From assembly GCF_000372445.1 (NCBI RefSeq), contig NZ_AQUY01000001.1, forward strand, positions 309,448-373,447: a DNA stretch of 64,000 nt, in the 5' to 3' direction. The position numbers were made by a program, and so were the translations under genes. Positions within the stretch are counted from its first letter, which is position 1. Each line of letters opens with the position of its first letter. Shown here piece by piece: positions 1,544 to 8,837 of this stretch. A model generated the notes under the pieces. It was not told the origin of the DNA. It worked only from the letters and a program-made list of their open reading frames with translations, and searched no databases. Source of the stretch: Corynebacterium ulceribovis DSM 45146 (GTDB lineage Bacteria; Actinomycetota; Actinomycetes; Mycobacteriales; Mycobacteriaceae).

Positions 1544-4500
1544 TTAGCCGAGTTGCTCTTCCTCAATCGGGCTTTCGTTCACTCCCAGCCCTTCCACAAT
1601 TCGTACAGTCTCCATCGCCACACGCGTGACCTTGCCGATCAGCTCGACAATGTACTTCGGGTTGCCCACTTCGTCTGCCCAGTCATTCGGGTCGTTGACA
1701 ATTCCCGACGCCTTATCGCGCTTGACCTGGTAGCGGTCAATCAGCCACGCAACGGCAGACCGCGAGCCCAGCATGTACTGGTCGGCTTCGGCTGGAATCC
1801 CACGAATTGTCAGCTTCGGGTTGTAGATCAGCGTCGTCACATCATTGACGTTCTTGCCGGTCTTAGGGTCCTTCTTCTTCGCCCACTTCATCTTGGTGAC
1901 TCGCCAGGTTTCCCGGTCATCCAAGTCTGCTGTCGGCTTCCAATCCAGGTCCAACGGCCACGGCTCGACGTCTTCGTATCCGACATGAAGCGCCATCAGT
2001 TCGGCACCAGCCTTCGCGAACTTATCGAACTCAGCGCGAGTCTCTGGCGTTTCAATATGCGGCAGCATCTTCTTCAAGTCCGCGGCATATTTCGTCCGGT
2101 ACTCTGGATCATGCAGTTTTCCGTAGACAAAGTGGAAAATATCGTCGCCACTAATGTCCTGTCCCAATGCCTCTCGGTACAGTGCCTTGATCTCCGGGGT
2201 GATGTTATCTACACGGACATACCCATCCAGCACTTCACCAATCTCACCGTGAACACTGGTTTCAGCGTTTTGCTTGTCGACGACTACCGCACCGAAAAGC
2301 TCACCCTCGTCAGCGTCCGCCTTCTCCCATGTGAAACGCGGGAAGAACTGTGATGTTGCGATGACATGGAGATCAGGAAGCAAGGTCGTACCAAGTACTG
2401 CAGTCTCAACAGATTCTCCTGTTCCTACGCAAACGAAACCAATGTTTGAATGTTCTGGAGTCGGAAACATTCGAGGCAACTGGTAGGTCATATCATTCAG
2501 CGAAGAATCAAAGTATCCAGAGGCTTTTGTAAATGGCCGATACAAAGACTCGAAAATTCTATCTTTGTGCGGAGAGATCTTTCGATTCCTTGCGGAGAGG
2601 TTCTTAAGAGTCCGATTCCAAGAAATCGTCTTGTTGTCAGCAAATGCTGGTGTGTCTCGAAGGAAAATAGTTACGTCGGCTTCTTTGGGATGCGTGATGC
2701 CCTTATCAACTAGCCATGCTTGTAGTTCGTTCGTAGCTGAATTATAGGTGTGCGTGAGCTTTTCAACTTTTCGGAGGACTGCTTTAGGGCTAGGAGCATA
2801 TGCCCAGGCATCCCTTCCCGTTTTAAGGCCGGCAGAAAACGTTTTGAAGAACTTCAGATCGCTCGTTTTCTTGTTGCCAATGACTGGCCAAGTTGCGAAC
2901 GCATCGTCTCGTTGGCTTAACCAGTCACCGTGGGTGTTCGGGGTGATTTCGGTCCAATCGGTGTTCTCGATGGTGCTTTGGTTGACAATTTTGAGCTTTT
3001 CTTCGGCAGTGAGGTAATCGCCGATGTCCCTGTAATGAAGCTTGAACTCGGAGCTCGATAAGTCTTTGATACCGATCATGACTGCAATTGTGGTTCGACC
3101 ACCATCGCGGAAAACGTTACCGGCTTCTTTCCGTCGCTGTTCTCCGGCGGTGCGTGCGTTACCGCGCAGGTTGAAGACATAAAAGTCGGTGAAATCTTCC
3201 GCCACCGAAAGACGCACACCGTCACCGGTATTGGCGTCCAACCAGCCACCATTCGAAACGAACGCAACAACACCTTGGTCGCCAATACGGTCAGTTGCCC
3301 AGCGGAAAGCACGCAAGTAAGAGTCGTAGAGCGAGTTTTTGTTCGTTGCTGTGGACCTACCAGCGTAAGTCTCGGCAATCCGAGCGTCCAAGCTTGGATA
3401 CTTGAGGTTCGCATTCAGATCATTCGCACTTGTTTGACCAACGGAGTATGGTGGATTGCCGATTACCACATTGATTGGTGCTGCCATTTGGCGGTCAATT
3501 GCAGCGTTGTTGGACTGAAAGATCTCCAAATCAGGAATGTCACCTTCCTCATGAATCTGGAAAGTGTCCGCCAGCGCAATACCAGTGAAAGTCTCATACT
3601 CAGGAGCGTCTTCGTCATTGCGCTGAGCGGCCTCTGCACGCAGCGCGTTATACGTCGTTTCAATATTCACCGCAGAGACGTAATACGCCAACAACATGAT
3701 TTCAGTCGCGAACAGCTCCGACGCATACTTACGCGCCAGATCTTCTGGCTTAATCAGTCCGGATTGCAGCAGTCGCACGGTGAAGGTGGACGTGCCAGCG
3801 AATGGGTCGAGGATGCAAACCCCTTCGTCGCTAAGCCCCTTGCCGAAATGCATCCGGGACACCTCATCCGCCGCGCGCAAAATGAAGTCAACAATCTCAA
3901 CTGGGGTGTAGACAATACCCAGAGACTCCGCCTGCTTCTTAAAAGCCTTACGGAAGAAGCGCTCGTAGAGTTCCTTAATGACCTGTTGCTTACCAGAGGC
4001 GCTGGTCACTTCGGATGCGCGGACACGGACTGACTGATAGAATGTCTCCAGCTGTTCAGTTTCGGATTCCAGGTTCGAGTCAGACAAGACATCAACCATG
4101 CGTTGCATGACCTGAGCGACTGGGTTGTGTGTGATGAAGTCGTAATTGTCGAAGAGAGCATTGAATACTGGTGCAGTAATCAAGTGCTGCGAAAGCATCG
4201 CGATAGCGTCGTCATCAGAGATGGCGGCATTCAGGTTGCCACGCAGCCCGTCAACGAAAGCGTCGAACTCGGTGGTGAGGTTTTCGTCAGCGTCGGCAAG
4301 CAATGCCTTGATGCGGGTGATTTGGCGTTCGGCGATGCCTGCGACGTCATCCGCCCAATCTTCCCAATACGTGCGTGTGCCGACCTTGTCGACAATGCGG
4401 ACGTACATTGCCTCCTGCCACTCCTCGAGGGCAAAGAGCGCGAGCTGGCCGAATTCTAGCGGTAAGCCTTCAGATGTGCCTGCGACCGTGTCAATTCTTT

Positions 4501-4594
4501 GAATCGTATCCAGTTGAATTCTGTCGCCGAGCGGCGACGAGGCGGAAGACTGGATCCGCGAAGGGCCAAGCTGCCCGCGGGGGGGGGGGCTCAC
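1544..4594 (-). CDS. Type ISP restriction-modification enzyme, C-terminal half (methylase and target recognition), out of frame with its N-terminal half
   Basis: About 1016 residues with a GTG at 4594 that looks artificial, because the natural protein continues from the upstream half. Roughly residues 40-250 form an alpha-helical coupler. SAM-binding motif I follows (ILDPFAGTSTF near 261) and then adenine-methylase motif IV NPPY at 380-383. The remaining 600 residues fit the target-recognition domain of Type ISP enzymes (LlaBIII/LlaGI class), in which nuclease, translocase, N6-adenine methylase and specificity domain sit in one chain. The reading frame is displaced by +1 from the helicase half at the G run 4579-4589. 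As it stands this half has no good ribosome-binding site, so a translated methylase would need slippage or internal initiation. The site specificity is unknown. Confidence 0.85.
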   Translation of the reverse strand: MSPPPRGQLGPSRIQSSASSPLGDRIQLDTIQRIDTVAGTSEGLPLEFGQLALFALEEWQEAMYVRIVDKVGTRTYWEDWADDVAGIAERQITRIKALLADADENLTTEFDAFVDGLRGNLNAAISDDDAIAMLSQHLITAPVFNALFDNYDFITHNPVAQVMQRMVDVLSDSNLESETEQLETFYQSVRVRASEVTSASGKQQVIKELYERFFRKAFKKQAESLGIVYTPVEIVDFILRAADEVSRMHFGKGLSDEGVCILDPFAGTSTFTVRLLQSGLIKPEDLARKYASELFATEIMLLAYYVSAVNIETTYNALRAEAAQRNDEDAPEYETFTGIALADTFQIHEEGDIPDLEIFQSNNAAIDRQMAAPINVVIGNPPYSVGQTSANDLNANLKYPSLDARIAETYAGRSTATNKNSLYDSYLRAFRWATDRIGDQGVVAFVSNGGWLDANTGDGVRLSVAEDFTDFYVFNLRGNARTAGEQRRKEAGNVFRDGGRTTIAVMIGIKDLSSSEFKLHYRDIGDYLTAEEKLKIVNQSTIENTDWTEITPNTHGDWLSQRDDAFATWPVIGNKKTSDLKFFKTFSAGLKTGRDAWAYAPSPKAVLRKVEKLTHTYNSATNELQAWLVDKGITHPKEADVTIFLRDTPAFADNKTISWNRTLKNLSARNRKISPHKDRIFESLYRPFTKASGYFDSSLNDMTYQLPRMFPTPEHSNIGFVCVGTGESVETAVLGTTLLPDLHVIATSQFFPRFTWEKADADEGELFGAVVVDKQNAETSVHGEIGEVLDGYVRVDNITPEIKALYREALGQDISGDDIFHFVYGKLHDPEYRTKYAADLKKMLPHIETPETRAEFDKFAKAGAELMALHVGYEDVEPWPLDLDWKPTADLDDRETWRVTKMKWAKKKDPKTGKNVNDVTTLIYNPKLTIRGIPAEADQYMLGSRSAVAWLIDRYQVKRDKASGIVNDPNDWADEVGNPKYIVELIGKVTRVAMETVRIVEGLGVNESPIEEEQLG

Positions 4595-6647
4595 TCAAAG
4601 AAGGATCTCTATCCTTCGCCAGGGCATTGAGCTGCGCGGAGTTGACCATCGCATTAAAACGATCATCGTGAGCGCGCAGTGCGTTGAGCACCTGCCACAC
4701 CACATGGAATCGCTTGTTGTCGGCAAGCGCTGCACTTGGGGAGACACCAGCAGGTACGCCGACTGGCAAAATGATGTAGCCGTAGTCCTTGCCATCGGAT
4801 TTACGCATCACGCGGCCAACGGACTGTACAACATCAACTACTGAATTGCGCGGGTTGAGGAACAGGACAGCGTCAAGAGCTGGGACATCCACGCCCTCAG
4901 ATAGGCAGCGGGCATTAGAAAGGACGCGGGTTTCCATATCCGGCACTGGAGCTTTGAGCCACGTGAGCTTCTCGCCACGATTCTGCGCATTCATGGTGCC
5001 GTCGACATGTTCAACCGCCACTTTGAGGTCTGCATTGTGTAGATCAATGTGCGGCGACATAGCGGAACGCTCCGCCATCAGTTCAGTGTGCGCATTGATC
5101 AGCGCGGGGAACTGCTCCGCAACCTGCTTGGAGGAAGCAATGTCCCTGGCGAAAGCGACCACCCGCTCCATCGGAGCGTCGGCCGATTCGAATCCGTCCT
5201 TCTTGTCTTGAAAAGAACCCGAACGCTTCGCCATCGCATTCCAAGCACCAATCAGACGAGAGGCAGTGTCCAGGTTCAGTTCGTTGTCGACAGTGGCGAC
5301 CGAGCGCTGCAGAGCTTCGGCGGCAACGGACTCGTCGACAGTCAGAACGAGGACTTTGTAGTCGGTAAGCAGTCCCTTGTCGACTGCTTCGCCGAAGCCG
5401 AGGCGGTGGAACTCCGGGCCGAAGATAGCTTCATCATCCATCGACGCGACCTCGGCGGAGCGGTCCGCTGCCCTATCTTTGGTCTTGTCGTCGTACAAAC
5501 GTGGGGTAGCGGTCATATAGAGACGTTTGCCGCCGCGGATGTAATTAGCGTCGTGGATAGCGACGAACGCAGAATGATCATCGCCCGGCATGGTGACGCC
5601 GGTGGTGCGGTGCGCTTCATCGCAAATGATGAGGTCGAAAGGCTCAGCGCCGAGCTTTTGTGCCTGGTGGATGGCCTCGAGGGACTGATAGGTGGAGAAG
5701 ACCACCTTCATTCCTTCGGCGCGCTTCCTCTGGCTGAGCTTTTCCGCGATGGTCGCGGGGTCGGTAGAGACAGGGATTTCCAGCTCATAGGACTGAATAT
5801 CTTCGGTCTGCTTGGAAACCTTCTTGTCCGAGCACACTGCAATTGGCATCAAATCCAGCTTGGAATTCGCTGACCATTCGCGCAGCGTCTGTGAGAGCAA
5901 GCTAATGGACGGAACGCAGAACAGGATTCGGGAGCGGCCAGGCGTAGCGCTGTGCTTTTCGGTGTACTCTTCGGCAAGCTTCAGCGACGTGAAGGTCTTG
6001 CCGGTACCGCAGGCCATGACAAGTTTGCCGCGGTCATGTGTTGCGAAGCCAACCAGAGCCTTGTCGATAGCAGTGCGCTGATGTGGGCGTGGCTCGAAGT
6101 GTTTACGCGGATGCAGCTGGAACTCGAGTTGCTGGCGGGACTCAGAATTCGGGTACACAATGTCCCAGTCCAGCGGAGCATCAGCGATGTCCGGAAGACC
6201 AAAAGTCTGAACTGGTACGGTCTGCTTCTTCAAAGTATCGCGGGCATTATCCGACCAGTTGTCTGTAGTGGCAATAATGATGCGGTTGGTGAAAGACTCC
6301 AGTTCGCCGTCTTCGTTGTAGAACTGGCGGCCAGATTCCGTGAAGAAGGAGTTGATGTCTTCTTTCGATAAGCGGCGACTCGGGCTATAGAACTTGCATT
6401 GAATTGCCGTCCATGTCTGGTCCTCGCGCCGACGAGCAACTAGGTCAATGCCCAGGTCTTTTAAGCTCTGGTTGGAGCCTGGCTTGGCGATATTCCAGTC
6501 AGAAAACCGTGCGACATAGTCGTACTCGGTGCGTAAAACGGGGTGCAGCTGGAAATAGTTGACCATCAACTTTTCAAACGCAGTGCCTTGCTCAGAAACA
6601 GTAGGCAACTCGCGGATTGCATCGAAGACGTCTTGAACCGTGTACAT
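4491..6647 (-). CDS. Type ISP restriction-modification enzyme, N-terminal half (Mrr-like nuclease plus SF2 helicase/translocase), truncated by frameshift
   Basis: 718 residues from an ATG at 6647. The N-terminal 100 residues form a PD-(D/E)xK nuclease of the Mrr type, with Asp68 and Gln83-Cys84-Lys85 as the likely catalytic set. A superfamily-2 helicase follows: Walker A GTGKT at 214-218, DEAH-type box CDEAH at 342-346, a threonine-alanine motif TATPR, and motif VI QSVGRVMR. The last 30 or so residues after the proline run are read in the wrong frame and end at 4491. With a 10-C run the chain would pass directly into the methylase half, giving a protein of about 1700 residues, close to known Type ISP enzymes. 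It lies 63 bp downstream of the RloB-like gene on the same strand. In this frame the enzyme lacks methylase and specificity domains and should be inactive. Confidence 0.88.
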   Translation of the reverse strand: MYTVQDVFDAIRELPTVSEQGTAFEKLMVNYFQLHPVLRTEYDYVARFSDWNIAKPGSNQSLKDLGIDLVARRREDQTWTAIQCKFYSPSRRLSKEDINSFFTESGRQFYNEDGELESFTNRIIIATTDNWSDNARDTLKKQTVPVQTFGLPDIADAPLDWDIVYPNSESRQQLEFQLHPRKHFEPRPHQRTAIDKALVGFATHDRGKLVMACGTGKTFTSLKLAEEYTEKHSATPGRSRILFCVPSISLLSQTLREWSANSKLDLMPIAVCSDKKVSKQTEDIQSYELEIPVSTDPATIAEKLSQRKRAEGMKVVFSTYQSLEAIHQAQKLGAEPFDLIICDEAHRTTGVTMPGDDHSAFVAIHDANYIRGGKRLYMTATPRLYDDKTKDRAADRSAEVASMDDEAIFGPEFHRLGFGEAVDKGLLTDYKVLVLTVDESVAAEALQRSVATVDNELNLDTASRLIGAWNAMAKRSGSFQDKKDGFESADAPMERVVAFARDIASSKQVAEQFPALINAHTELMAERSAMSPHIDLHNADLKVAVEHVDGTMNAQNRGEKLTWLKAPVPDMETRVLSNARCLSEGVDVPALDAVLFLNPRNSVVDVVQSVGRVMRKSDGKDYGYIILPVGVPAGVSPSAALADNKRFHVVWQVLNALRAHDDRFNAMVNSAQLNALAKDRDPSLSEPPPPRAAWPFADPVFRLVAARRQNSTGYDSKN
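4579..4589 (-). repeat. Homopolymer run of 11 G (11 C on the coding strand) within the Type ISP gene
   Basis: On the minus strand the sequence is a GAG codon, eleven C, then GCGGGC. Counting frames, the nuclease/helicase half reads GAG-CCC-CCC-CCC-CCG and drifts off. The methylase half needs CCC-CCC-CCC-CGC-GGG, which requires 10 (or 7 or 13) C. Long G/C homopolymers inside coding sequence are classic sites of slipped-strand phase variation, and are also classic sites of sequencing indels. Confidence 0.95.
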
Positions 6648-6710: not shown

Positions 6711-7319
6711 TCACTGCTTTCTAAGGAGAAAATCAATCAGTTTGGGTATCGCAGTCTTACTGGAGGAACCCATTTTGTTGAACGCTAAATGGTCGCAGCT
6801 GCTTGCTGCTTTTTGATGTTCGCGGATAGGGAAGGAGTCAGAGAGATGCTTATTCCGGACGGTATCAACTGCCTGGAACCGCACTAGCTTTTGAGTCAAT
6901 GTGCCTCGGGGAACACTTCGATCGCGGATGTCCTCATAGTGAGCCAACAGCCACACTTCGAAACACTCATTGGAGACCACGAAGGCAGCTTGCTGCTTCT
7001 GCGCCGCAAGTGTCTGTGCGTCGCGGAAACCTTGGTGGAATTGGGTGCGAGGGTAGTCATCCACATCGACTACGAAGAATGCTGCCGAAAATGGTGCGTT
7101 CTTATCGCGTAAAATCTGGTTCTTCGCTTTGTCGACGATCTTGTTCGGTGGGTGAGGTTGGGACACCACGCTCAAATGTCGAATTCGGTAGGTTTCGCGA
7201 AGTCGCTGAAAATATTCAGTCTCGGTGACTTTGCCTTGAACCACGAGCAATACAGGGGACTTTTCCTGCCTTGCTCGTGCTTGCCCCCGTCTTCTGTTTC
7301 CACGTTCGCGCTTTGCCAC
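6711..7319 (-). CDS. RloB-family protein (AbiLii-like partner of the upstream ATPase)
   Basis: 202 residues from a GTG at 7319, preceded by a GAGAGG-type ribosome-binding site. After a basic N-terminus (RRRGQARARQ) comes a short beta-strand with TETEYF at 32-37, an acidic strand FFVVDVDDY with Asp85/Asp87/Asp88, and the RloB hallmark SNECFEVWLLAH at 116-127. The family is named from 'R-linked' genes of Campylobacter type I restriction loci and, as I recall, includes the lactococcal abortive-infection protein AbiLii. The Glu plus Asp-x-Asp arrangement suggests a TOPRIM-like metal site, which is inference. It starts 14 bp after the ATPase stop and is almost surely co-transcribed with it. Role: probable effector of a two-gene phage-defence module. 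Confidence 0.8.
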   Translation of the reverse strand: MAKRERGNRRRGQARARQEKSPVLLVVQGKVTETEYFQRLRETYRIRHLSVVSQPHPPNKIVDKAKNQILRDKNAPFSAAFFVVDVDDYPRTQFHQGFRDAQTLAAQKQQAAFVVSNECFEVWLLAHYEDIRDRSVPRGTLTQKLVRFQAVDTVRNKHLSDSFPIREHQKAASSCDHLAFNKMGSSSKTAIPKLIDFLLRKQ

Positions 7320-7333
7320 CCCAGCCCCTCTCG

Positions 7334-8656
7334 CTAGTTTTGCGCTTGGTCTCCAAGATACTTGGCGCGTAGCACATTTACAGTGGCGAGCAACTCTCGT
7401 TGGTTTGCCACTGGCACAGCCCCATAGACGCCTTGCATGTATCGCTTTTCGATGTTGTGGACTTCGCGAACTGGGAACTCATCGAGTGCCACAAGCTCAG
7501 AGAATGACTCATCCTTATCCACAAACCAGACCTCACCGCGGTGCAAGCTCTCAACAGGGTGGCGCCCTAAAAGAGTGAGATCGTGGGTAGTGAATAGCAG
7601 CTGGGCGCCATGCGGGTTGAGATCTGGGGTGTCGAAGTAAGAGACCAGTTCGCGAACCAACATCGGGTGAAGGGAACCATCGATTTCGTCTACTGACATC
7701 ACGCCACCAACTGCGAGTGCGAAAATAGCTGGCACAGCTAGGTCCATCCAGGTTCTAGTGCCCTGCGATTCCTGCTCTTCAGGCAGCGAAAACTCGCGAT
7801 CGCCGCTCTTGTGTACGAAGAGGATGTAATGGAGATACTCGATGATGAGGTCGGCCTCGACCTCTTGGGATATCTCGGCTTTGCCGTCGGGCTGAATGAT
7901 CAGATTCAAACTCTTGATGGCTTCTGGCGCTTTTTCCTCAATCCCAATGTCATCAATCCCAACGTCAGCAACCGAAACCACCATTCGCAAAACGTTTAAC
8001 CAGCTGGGATCCTTCTTTGCAAGGTCAACAAGCCATTGGTGGCGGTTATCTTGGTCAGCGCTGTCGGTGACGATTAGCGGAAGGAGTTTTGTCCACCAGT
8101 GGAGAGCGCCAGCGTTTTTTCCTGGGGTTTTGACGGTTCCCCATGCAGATAGCACCAGAGCCCACGGCCGCATGAATTGTTCGATGTTCTCCTTCGCGGC
8201 GTGCGACAGTCCTGATCCTGGGCCGAAGACGACTGTGTCTCGGTCGCGCTCGAAGATGAGGCGCCACCGTGACTTTGGATTGGCCTCCAAATACTCCTCG
8301 ACCACACCTTGCTTGTCGACAGTGACACCCCAGCGATATCGCACATCGATATTGACATACTCCAGTTCAAACGATGTCGGGCGGTCCGTGCGAAGCAGAT
8401 GCGGATCTCGAAGGCGTCGGACAAATCTCTCATCTGTCAGCGAGTTTTTCACCGACAAATTCAGTTGGCTAAGTGCGCGAAGCACATTCGATTTGCCAGC
8501 GGCATTAGCTCCGAAAATTGCGGCACGTCGCCAAGTATTTTCCGTCCAAGTTTCGCCCTCACGCGGTCGTTGTGTCTTGAAACTGCGCCGTTGCAGATCA
8601 AGAGTCGTTTCGTCGCCGAATGAGCGAAAGTTTTGGATGGAAAGGGAGAGCAGCAT
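7334..8656 (-). CDS. ABC-type AAA ATPase, RloA/AbiLi-like
   Basis: 440 residues if translated from the ATG at 8656; an ATG at 8680 would add eight. I prefer 8656 because this family normally begins MLLSLSIQNFRSF, which forms the first strand. The Walker A is GANAAGKS at 49-56. Near the C-terminus are the ABC-like Walker B region with SVDEIDGSLHP and the H-loop TTHDLTLL, giving the AAA_15/AAA_21 (OLD/RecF-like) architecture. Such ATPases act as sensors or scaffolds in PARIS, OLD, Gabija-type and AbiL systems. It is the first gene of the leftward defence cluster, diverging from the metal-uptake operon, so its promoter should lie in 8680-8840. Confidence 0.85.
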   Translation of the reverse strand: MLLSLSIQNFRSFGDETTLDLQRRSFKTQRPREGETWTENTWRRAAIFGANAAGKSNVLRALSQLNLSVKNSLTDERFVRRLRDPHLLRTDRPTSFELEYVNIDVRYRWGVTVDKQGVVEEYLEANPKSRWRLIFERDRDTVVFGPGSGLSHAAKENIEQFMRPWALVLSAWGTVKTPGKNAGALHWWTKLLPLIVTDSADQDNRHQWLVDLAKKDPSWLNVLRMVVSVADVGIDDIGIEEKAPEAIKSLNLIIQPDGKAEISQEVEADLIIEYLHYILFVHKSGDREFSLPEEQESQGTRTWMDLAVPAIFALAVGGVMSVDEIDGSLHPMLVRELVSYFDTPDLNPHGAQLLFTTHDLTLLGRHPVESLHRGEVWFVDKDESFSELVALDEFPVREVHNIEKRYMQGVYGAVPVANQRELLATVNVLRAKYLGDQAQN

Positions 8657-8837
8657 GCTTCCAGAGTAGTGTTTTGACATCAATCCCGCACAATATGTGC
8701 AAAATTGGCAGCAAAAGGTTGATTTAAGGCCCCTTCGAAGCTTCCGTCTGTTCCGGGTGGTGCTTGATTTGGCTTTCGTGCTGCTGGGGTAACTACAAAA
8801 TGCCAGGTAGGCATGAATAAGTGCAATCTTTTGGAAA

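Follow-up and report, generated by a model that had tools for sequence, protein, structure and literature searches.

A Type ISP restriction-modification gene split at a long C tract in Corynebacterium ulceribovis, and the likely phase variation of the enzyme

Results

The stretch of Corynebacterium ulceribovis DSM 45146 DNA analysed here (the window, 64,000 nucleotides in length) carries two overlapping minus-strand frames which, judged from their sequence, make up a single restriction-modification gene of Type ISP, present here as a split allele (Table 1). In a profile scan, frame 1 matched Mrr_cat_2, ResIII and Helicase_C, and frame 2 matched ISP_coupler, N6_Mtase and Type_ISP_C. All Type ISP parts are present and in the right order: nuclease, SF2 motor, coupler, N6-adenine methylase, and TRD. 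The DEAH and NPPY motifs were named from the sequence, and we take them in their usual meaning. On the PADLOC profile PDLC03597 (1646 positions), frame 1 covers positions 3–656 and frame 2 covers 693–1637, and on LlaBIII, a Type ISP enzyme of solved structure (4xqk), the two ranges are 17–656 (E 3.3e-152) and 681–1571 (E 3.5e-176). Because the matches to LlaBIII leave only a short gap, the break can be placed in the short linker between helicase and coupler, and it sits between the predicted restriction half and the predicted modification half. By prediction, the Type ISP protein cuts foreign DNA and marks that of its own cell. An earlier note on this DNA had recognised a Type ISP enzyme with all its parts spread across two minus-strand frames, and the domain, PADLOC, and LlaBIII matches bear this out. 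The coordinates that it gave, 4491–6647, describe the first frame, while the whole gene continues to 1544.

The two frames are out of register by one base. Frame 1 ends 88 bases past the tract, its final residues there being read out of frame, and the frames overlap by 104 bases (4491–4594). Aligned with L085, an intact 1655-aa homologue that is one locus with L008 (Corynebacterium lipophiloflavum), the window gene has exactly one frameshift and zero stops over 5.1 kb. The earlier note had suggested an alignment of this kind and had located the only break at the 11-base run, which 10 bases would close; the one-base offset agrees with that arithmetic, and no other lesion was found. The allele as sequenced, with its C11 tract and one-base offset, does not join the parts in a single polypeptide.

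Table 1. Features in the window, and tract positions in homologous genes as residues of the reference protein
Feature	Position	Strand	Basis or tract
Homopolymer tract, C11 on the coding strand (G11 on the plus strand), in the helicase/coupler linker	4579..4589	-	sequence
Frame 1, 718 aa: Mrr-like nuclease and SF2 (DEAH) helicase motor	4491..6647	-	domain matches
Frame 2, 1016-aa open frame: coupler, N6-adenine methyltransferase (NPPY), Type ISP TRD	1544..4594	-	domain matches
Putative separate product, 954 aa: coupler, methyltransferase, TRD	1544..4408	-	ATG 82 bases past the frame 1 stop
Candidate ribosome-binding site, purine-rich GAGGAG...AGGAGG	4409..4426	-	sequence; directly before the ATG at 4408
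Upstream neighbour, RloB/AbiLii-like protein	6711..7319	-	domain and PADLOC matches
Upstream neighbour, AAA ATPase, AbiLi-like	7334..8683	-	domain and PADLOC matches
Family tract	residue 223		L097 G8, L116 G9, L149 G10
Family tract	residue 296		L045 G10, L047 G10, both Actinotignum
Family tract	residue 320		L108 G10
Family tract	residue 551		L105 G8; L090 G7
Family tract	residues 684-692		window C11; L110 (C. uropygiale) C11
Family tract	residue 982		L125 C10, L135 C10, L158 C9, L162 C14, L164 C11, L165 C9; L163 C11, scaffold gap
Family tract	residue 1110		L176 G11
Family tract	residue 1537		L134 G11

The break in the linker leaves the methylase half whole. An ATG beyond the frame 1 stop could open this half as a putative separate product, and the protein database holds a 954-aa entry from the same contig (P0001). 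The purine-rich stretch ahead of this ATG, a candidate ribosome-binding site, may be incidental, since the same bases code for EEWQEA where the coupler begins. In a promoter and terminator scan of the window the number of sites lay below the mean of the shuffles, and the result was set aside. Upstream, the two genes at 6711–8683 lie on the same strand as the Type ISP gene, an arrangement that suggests a two-system defence cluster.

The tract at 4579–4589 is the sole run of at least eight G or C on either strand of the 64-kb window. Words of eight G are not unusual there (4 against a shuffle mean of 2.93, with 28 of 100 shuffles reaching 4), but a run of at least 11 is, since base-step frequencies predict about 0.04 of them in 64 kb. 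The whole genome (2.30 Mb in 8 contigs) has three runs of at least nine. A second G11 in the same genome (G000:C2:385539-385549; L005 1501–1511) lies 8 bases past the end of a 415-aa minus-strand frame and is possibly a further slippage site.

Homologues were found in 109 of 242 Corynebacterium genomes in a search with frame 2. From this 242-genome search we took 100 places, with short and weak matches excluded, and added 46 named loci; dropping 36 duplicates left 110 distinct homologous loci. Inside the gene, a G or C run of at least eight is present in 18 of the 110, at eight reference positions (Table 1). A break at any of the seven positions outside the linker maps into the helicase, the methylase, or the TRD. 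In the linker that holds the window tract, the longest G/C run among 88 complete loci is 3 (39 loci), 4 (41), 5 (5), 6 (1), or 11 (2). The two Actinotignum genes (L045 and L047, from two species) share the same helicase position and the same G10 and are both off-frame, which extends the pattern beyond Corynebacterium. By parsimony on a tree of 89 sequences, at least 13 changes across the eight positions are needed to account for the runs of at least seven, a count that does not distinguish gain from loss or transfer. L163 has an N between two tract copies and was treated as one locus of uncertain length. L092, with a G10 at the contig start and unrelated sequence ahead of it, was excluded from the 18; there, the unrelated sequence (1–247) joins the Type ISP gene exactly at the G10, possibly a misassembly caused by the tract. 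Two nuclease-helicase proteins, P0151 and P0173, stop soon past a short proline run near the linker, and they may represent other species with a tract where the window has one.

Run lengths in the 494 kb of family genes are two-peaked. There are 26 runs of length 6, one of 7, and two of 8, followed by a second peak with three of 9, six of 10, seven of 11, and one of 14, L163 being counted twice. Runs of at least nine occur in 16 loci (14 Corynebacterium and two Actinotignum) where 1.1 would be expected in 494 kb, making them about 15 times commoner. This expectation derives from 500 runs of at least nine in 87 gene-carrying genomes assumed to be 2.6 Mb each, and the draft G008 is among them and inflates the background rate. 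Among the 46 named loci, there are seven such runs in 207 kb of gene versus one in 412 kb of flank. As the loci are related, these counts are not independent events, and Poisson and Fisher values computed from them overstate the certainty; how many separate positions carry a tract is a better guide.

Genes of this family are not the sole place of long G/C tracts, with 1380 runs of at least nine across the 242 genomes. For a control we took 20 other runs of at least nine from eight genomes (G001, G002, G004, G007, and G009–G012, omitting the Type ISP one of G004). Two of the 20 had no frame of at least 80 aa inside 30 bases. Ten frames near control runs, compared with Pfam, comprised two HTH domain proteins, one cyclophilin, one SGNH/acyltransferase, and six proteins of no family; long tracts are thus not confined to the Type ISP gene. 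In the drafts G008 and G020, runs of at least nine G number 54 and 60. Many of them are clustered, in G008 within 250 bases of contig starts, and they look like assembly artefacts.

The whole gene is covered in 88 of the 110 loci, window included, and 68 of these 88 form one open frame. A tract of at least eight is found in 17 complete loci: 12 are frameshifted at the tract, four are open with an in-frame tract of 8 to 11 (L097, L108, L134, and L135), and one, L125, has its tract in frame, yet carries a stop at residue 48. In tract-bearing genes, the length of the tract therefore sets the frame, and the window gene is otherwise intact. The other 71 complete loci have no tract of at least eight, which means that switching is not a trait of the whole family. 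Of these, 64 are open, three have one stop each and no tract (L086, L107, and L131), and four are flagged as shifted. L090 is shifted at its run of 7 and L156 at 904–911, where there is no tract; the breaks flagged in L112 and L146 fall at residue 90 or earlier and may stem from the alignment.

Tract length differs between relatives at positions 982, 551, and 223. At position 982, L135 (C10, open), L164 (C11), and L165 (C9) have 91–94% DNA identity, and in all three comparisons the C run is the sole indel over ~4.9 kb. Protein records bring the contrast down to strain level. At 97.5–98.8% identity, six proteins have tails that imply C9 (P0134, P0138, P0139, and P0144), C12 (P0141), and C8 (P0142) at this position, next to C10 in L125, lengths that were inferred from the protein tails and the L125 flanks, not from DNA. 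Between L097 (G8, open) and L116 (G9, shifted) there are six further indels besides the tract difference, all in the later part of the gene, and between L090 (G7) and L105 (G8) there are eleven besides that at the tract. The intact protein P0056 is 100% identical to the shifted L090 over 558 aa before the tract and 99.7% identical over 1106 aa after it, and it has three glycines at the tract site, consistent with nine G. Tract length is equal in the two Actinotignum genes. In draft and metagenome assemblies a tract length can be off by one, and since the assembled sequences come from many sources, single tract lengths may be wrong. No second strain of the window's species was found among the best 120 matches of each protein search. 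Outside the window contig, no match among these exceeded 77% for the second half or 65% for the first half, and the rows above 70% in the first-half search belong to other species pairs only. By analogy with the relatives, the window's own tract is likely to vary in length.

Across seven pairs of relatives, omega is 0.016–0.186 on both sides of the break, each side taken in its own frame. In three pairs of off-frame genes (L164/L165, L162/L164, and L090/L105) it is 0.016–0.176, and with values this low, long-standing decay into pseudogenes is unlikely for those broken alleles. NucS is encoded in the window's genome, and MutS (MutS_V domain) is absent from it. MutS was likewise absent in all 61 Corynebacterium genomes sampled, the window's included, and was detected in 11 of 14 genomes of a control set. 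Passages of a study of M. smegmatis report that 1–2 bp indels escape repair by NucS, which its authors tie to homopolymer phase variation (PMC11551767). We infer that this behaviour carries over to Corynebacterium; with NucS and without MutS, small indels in the window's genome would then probably go unrepaired. In another actinobacterium, Propionibacterium acnes, variable G/C tracts tracked clades, taken by the authors of that study as a sign of slow accumulation (PMC4746626), and switching in the Type ISP family could be slow too.

Discussion

From one sequence, phase variation of this gene was a possibility, as the earlier note had put it. The family comparison makes it likely, given tracts at eight positions, their ~15-fold enrichment, the frameshift at the tract in 12 of 17 complete loci, and the length differences between relatives. 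The window tract is therefore best read as a likely slippage switch that would turn the Type ISP enzyme on and off, and we hold this reading with good confidence. DNA polymerase would slip on the C run during replication and change the tract by one or two bases, and NucS would leave the resulting one- or two-base indels in place. About one tract length in three would give the single polypeptide, and the other two frames would give no full enzyme. When full-length, the enzyme would methylate host DNA and cleave unmethylated phage DNA, and the sequenced C11 allele would be the off state for restriction. This proposed slippage mechanism follows models reported, in the passages available, for Cj0031 (PMC4889913) and pglX (PMC4365076).

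Several other explanations of the split gene have to be weighed against a phase-variable enzyme. The 11 might be a sequencing or assembly error, in which case the cell would have an in-frame tract and an intact enzyme. The genome is a draft of 8 contigs, contig ends or N gaps are found at or near such tracts in L163, L092, and L159/L179, and homopolymers of such length are miscounted by several methods. However, a miscount by one is unlikely to produce the ~15-fold enrichment of runs of at least nine, and even an in-frame allele could still carry a switch tract; we consider an error unlikely. It is very unlikely that the gene is dead, that is, that the frameshift is a fixed loss of function with decay under way. 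Restriction genes are often lost, and 12 complete loci are off-frame at the tract and a few more are broken in other ways, but the 5.1-kb window gene has no further stop or frameshift, the omega of 0.016–0.186 holds on either side of the break in seven pairs of relatives, and intact and broken alleles exist at 99.7–100% identity.

Slippage might also act at another level, with RNA polymerase or the ribosome slipping on the C run to give some full-length protein, so that the tract would be a dosage device and no switch. Homopolymers are able to cause transcriptional slippage, and the window tract is long. Against such recoding, the tract sites are not conserved (eight sites), G tracts and C tracts both occur, in-frame tracts of 8 to 11 exist in L097, L108, L134, and L135, and the length of the tract differs among close relatives, which together leave recoding little credibility. 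Finally, the halves could act as separate restriction and modification proteins for which fusion is unneeded. An ATG with purine-rich upstream sequence opens the 954-aa methylase half, and a lone Type ISP methylase half, HP0669, was active in E. coli according to passages of PMC3936762. However, the two frames overlap across the tract, the gene is a single open frame in 64 of the 71 complete loci that lack a long tract, and in 16 of the 18 tract loci the tract maps into the helicase, the methylase, or the TRD, so that a break there would destroy a domain, and hence we find a pair of separate genes highly improbable.

As a phase-variable gene, the window locus has one further trait to consider. 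Because its tract lies at the boundary between restriction and modification, the off state might keep methylation. We tentatively suggest, while regarding it as rather doubtful, that the linker tract is a restriction-only switch, by which cutting stops and a free coupler-methylase-TRD protein is still made. If this were true, the chromosome would stay marked and a return to the on state would be safe; switching would be R+M+ <-> R-M+ here, and the other seven family sites would lead to R-M-.

Phase-variable restriction-modification has mainly been described for Type I, IIG, and III systems. The Cj0031 gene of Campylobacter jejuni differs from the window gene in its Type IIG class and its campylobacter host, and to our knowledge its product has no helicase motor. 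The Streptomyces coelicolor gene pglX (Pgl/BREX) is one gene of a multi-gene system, in which, as far as we know, nuclease and motor are not fused to PglX. The likeness to Cj0031 is that of a single-polypeptide restriction-modification gene switched by a poly-G tract; in the passages of PMC4889913 available, this tract is missing from many homologues and is described at one position, compared with eight in the Type ISP family. The likeness to pglX is that of an actinobacterial, methylase-based phage defence with a G-tract switch, where sections of PMC4365076 report a change from 8 to 7 G. The Type ISP enzymes LlaGI and LlaBIII have the order of Mrr nuclease, two RecA cores, coupler, gamma N6-adenine methylase, and TRD (PMC4872093, in part). 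The window gene has the same domain order and differs in that its frame is broken by a homopolymer, and phase variation of LlaGI or LlaBIII was not found among the literature matches listed or in the available part of PMC4872093. In Helicobacter pylori, HP0667–HP0669 is also a Type ISP gene split by frameshifts, but these are stated, in the passages available, not to be due to sequence repeats (PMC3936762). A homopolymer-switched Type ISP gene was not found in the open-licence PMC papers searched, and this accords with the earlier note, which knew of no described corynebacterial case.

Here the slippage signature recurs at independent positions in one Type ISP gene family of Corynebacterium, a large genus of actinobacteria. 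Should switching be confirmed, populations of these bacteria would be mixed in their defence and methylation states, with effects on phage susceptibility, on laboratory DNA uptake, and on any methylome taken from a single colony. The natural series of tracts along one enzyme also makes it testable how a one-protein restriction-modification system survives being switched on.

Other kinds of break were observed in the family. A large insertion interrupts the Type ISP gene of two genomes, between L160 and L178 in G143 and between L181 and L177 in G014. The halves lie ~51 kb apart in G143, at reference residue ~1031, and ~54 kb apart in G014, at 911–931. Large serine recombinases are found at one junction of each insertion, and near the other junction G143 has a DUF3644/EC042_2821 nuclease-like gene and G014 a Type I HsdR-like gene. 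Both G143 halves are matched at 99.8% identity by P0038, which is intact, and thus an uninterrupted form exists. Breaks also cluster near methylase residues 910–939, as in L155 and L180 (G033) and in L171 (G103). Among 240 proteins listed, 21 end at reference residues 910–939, some of which may be contig ends, and in L155 a Mutator-family transposase adjoins the break.
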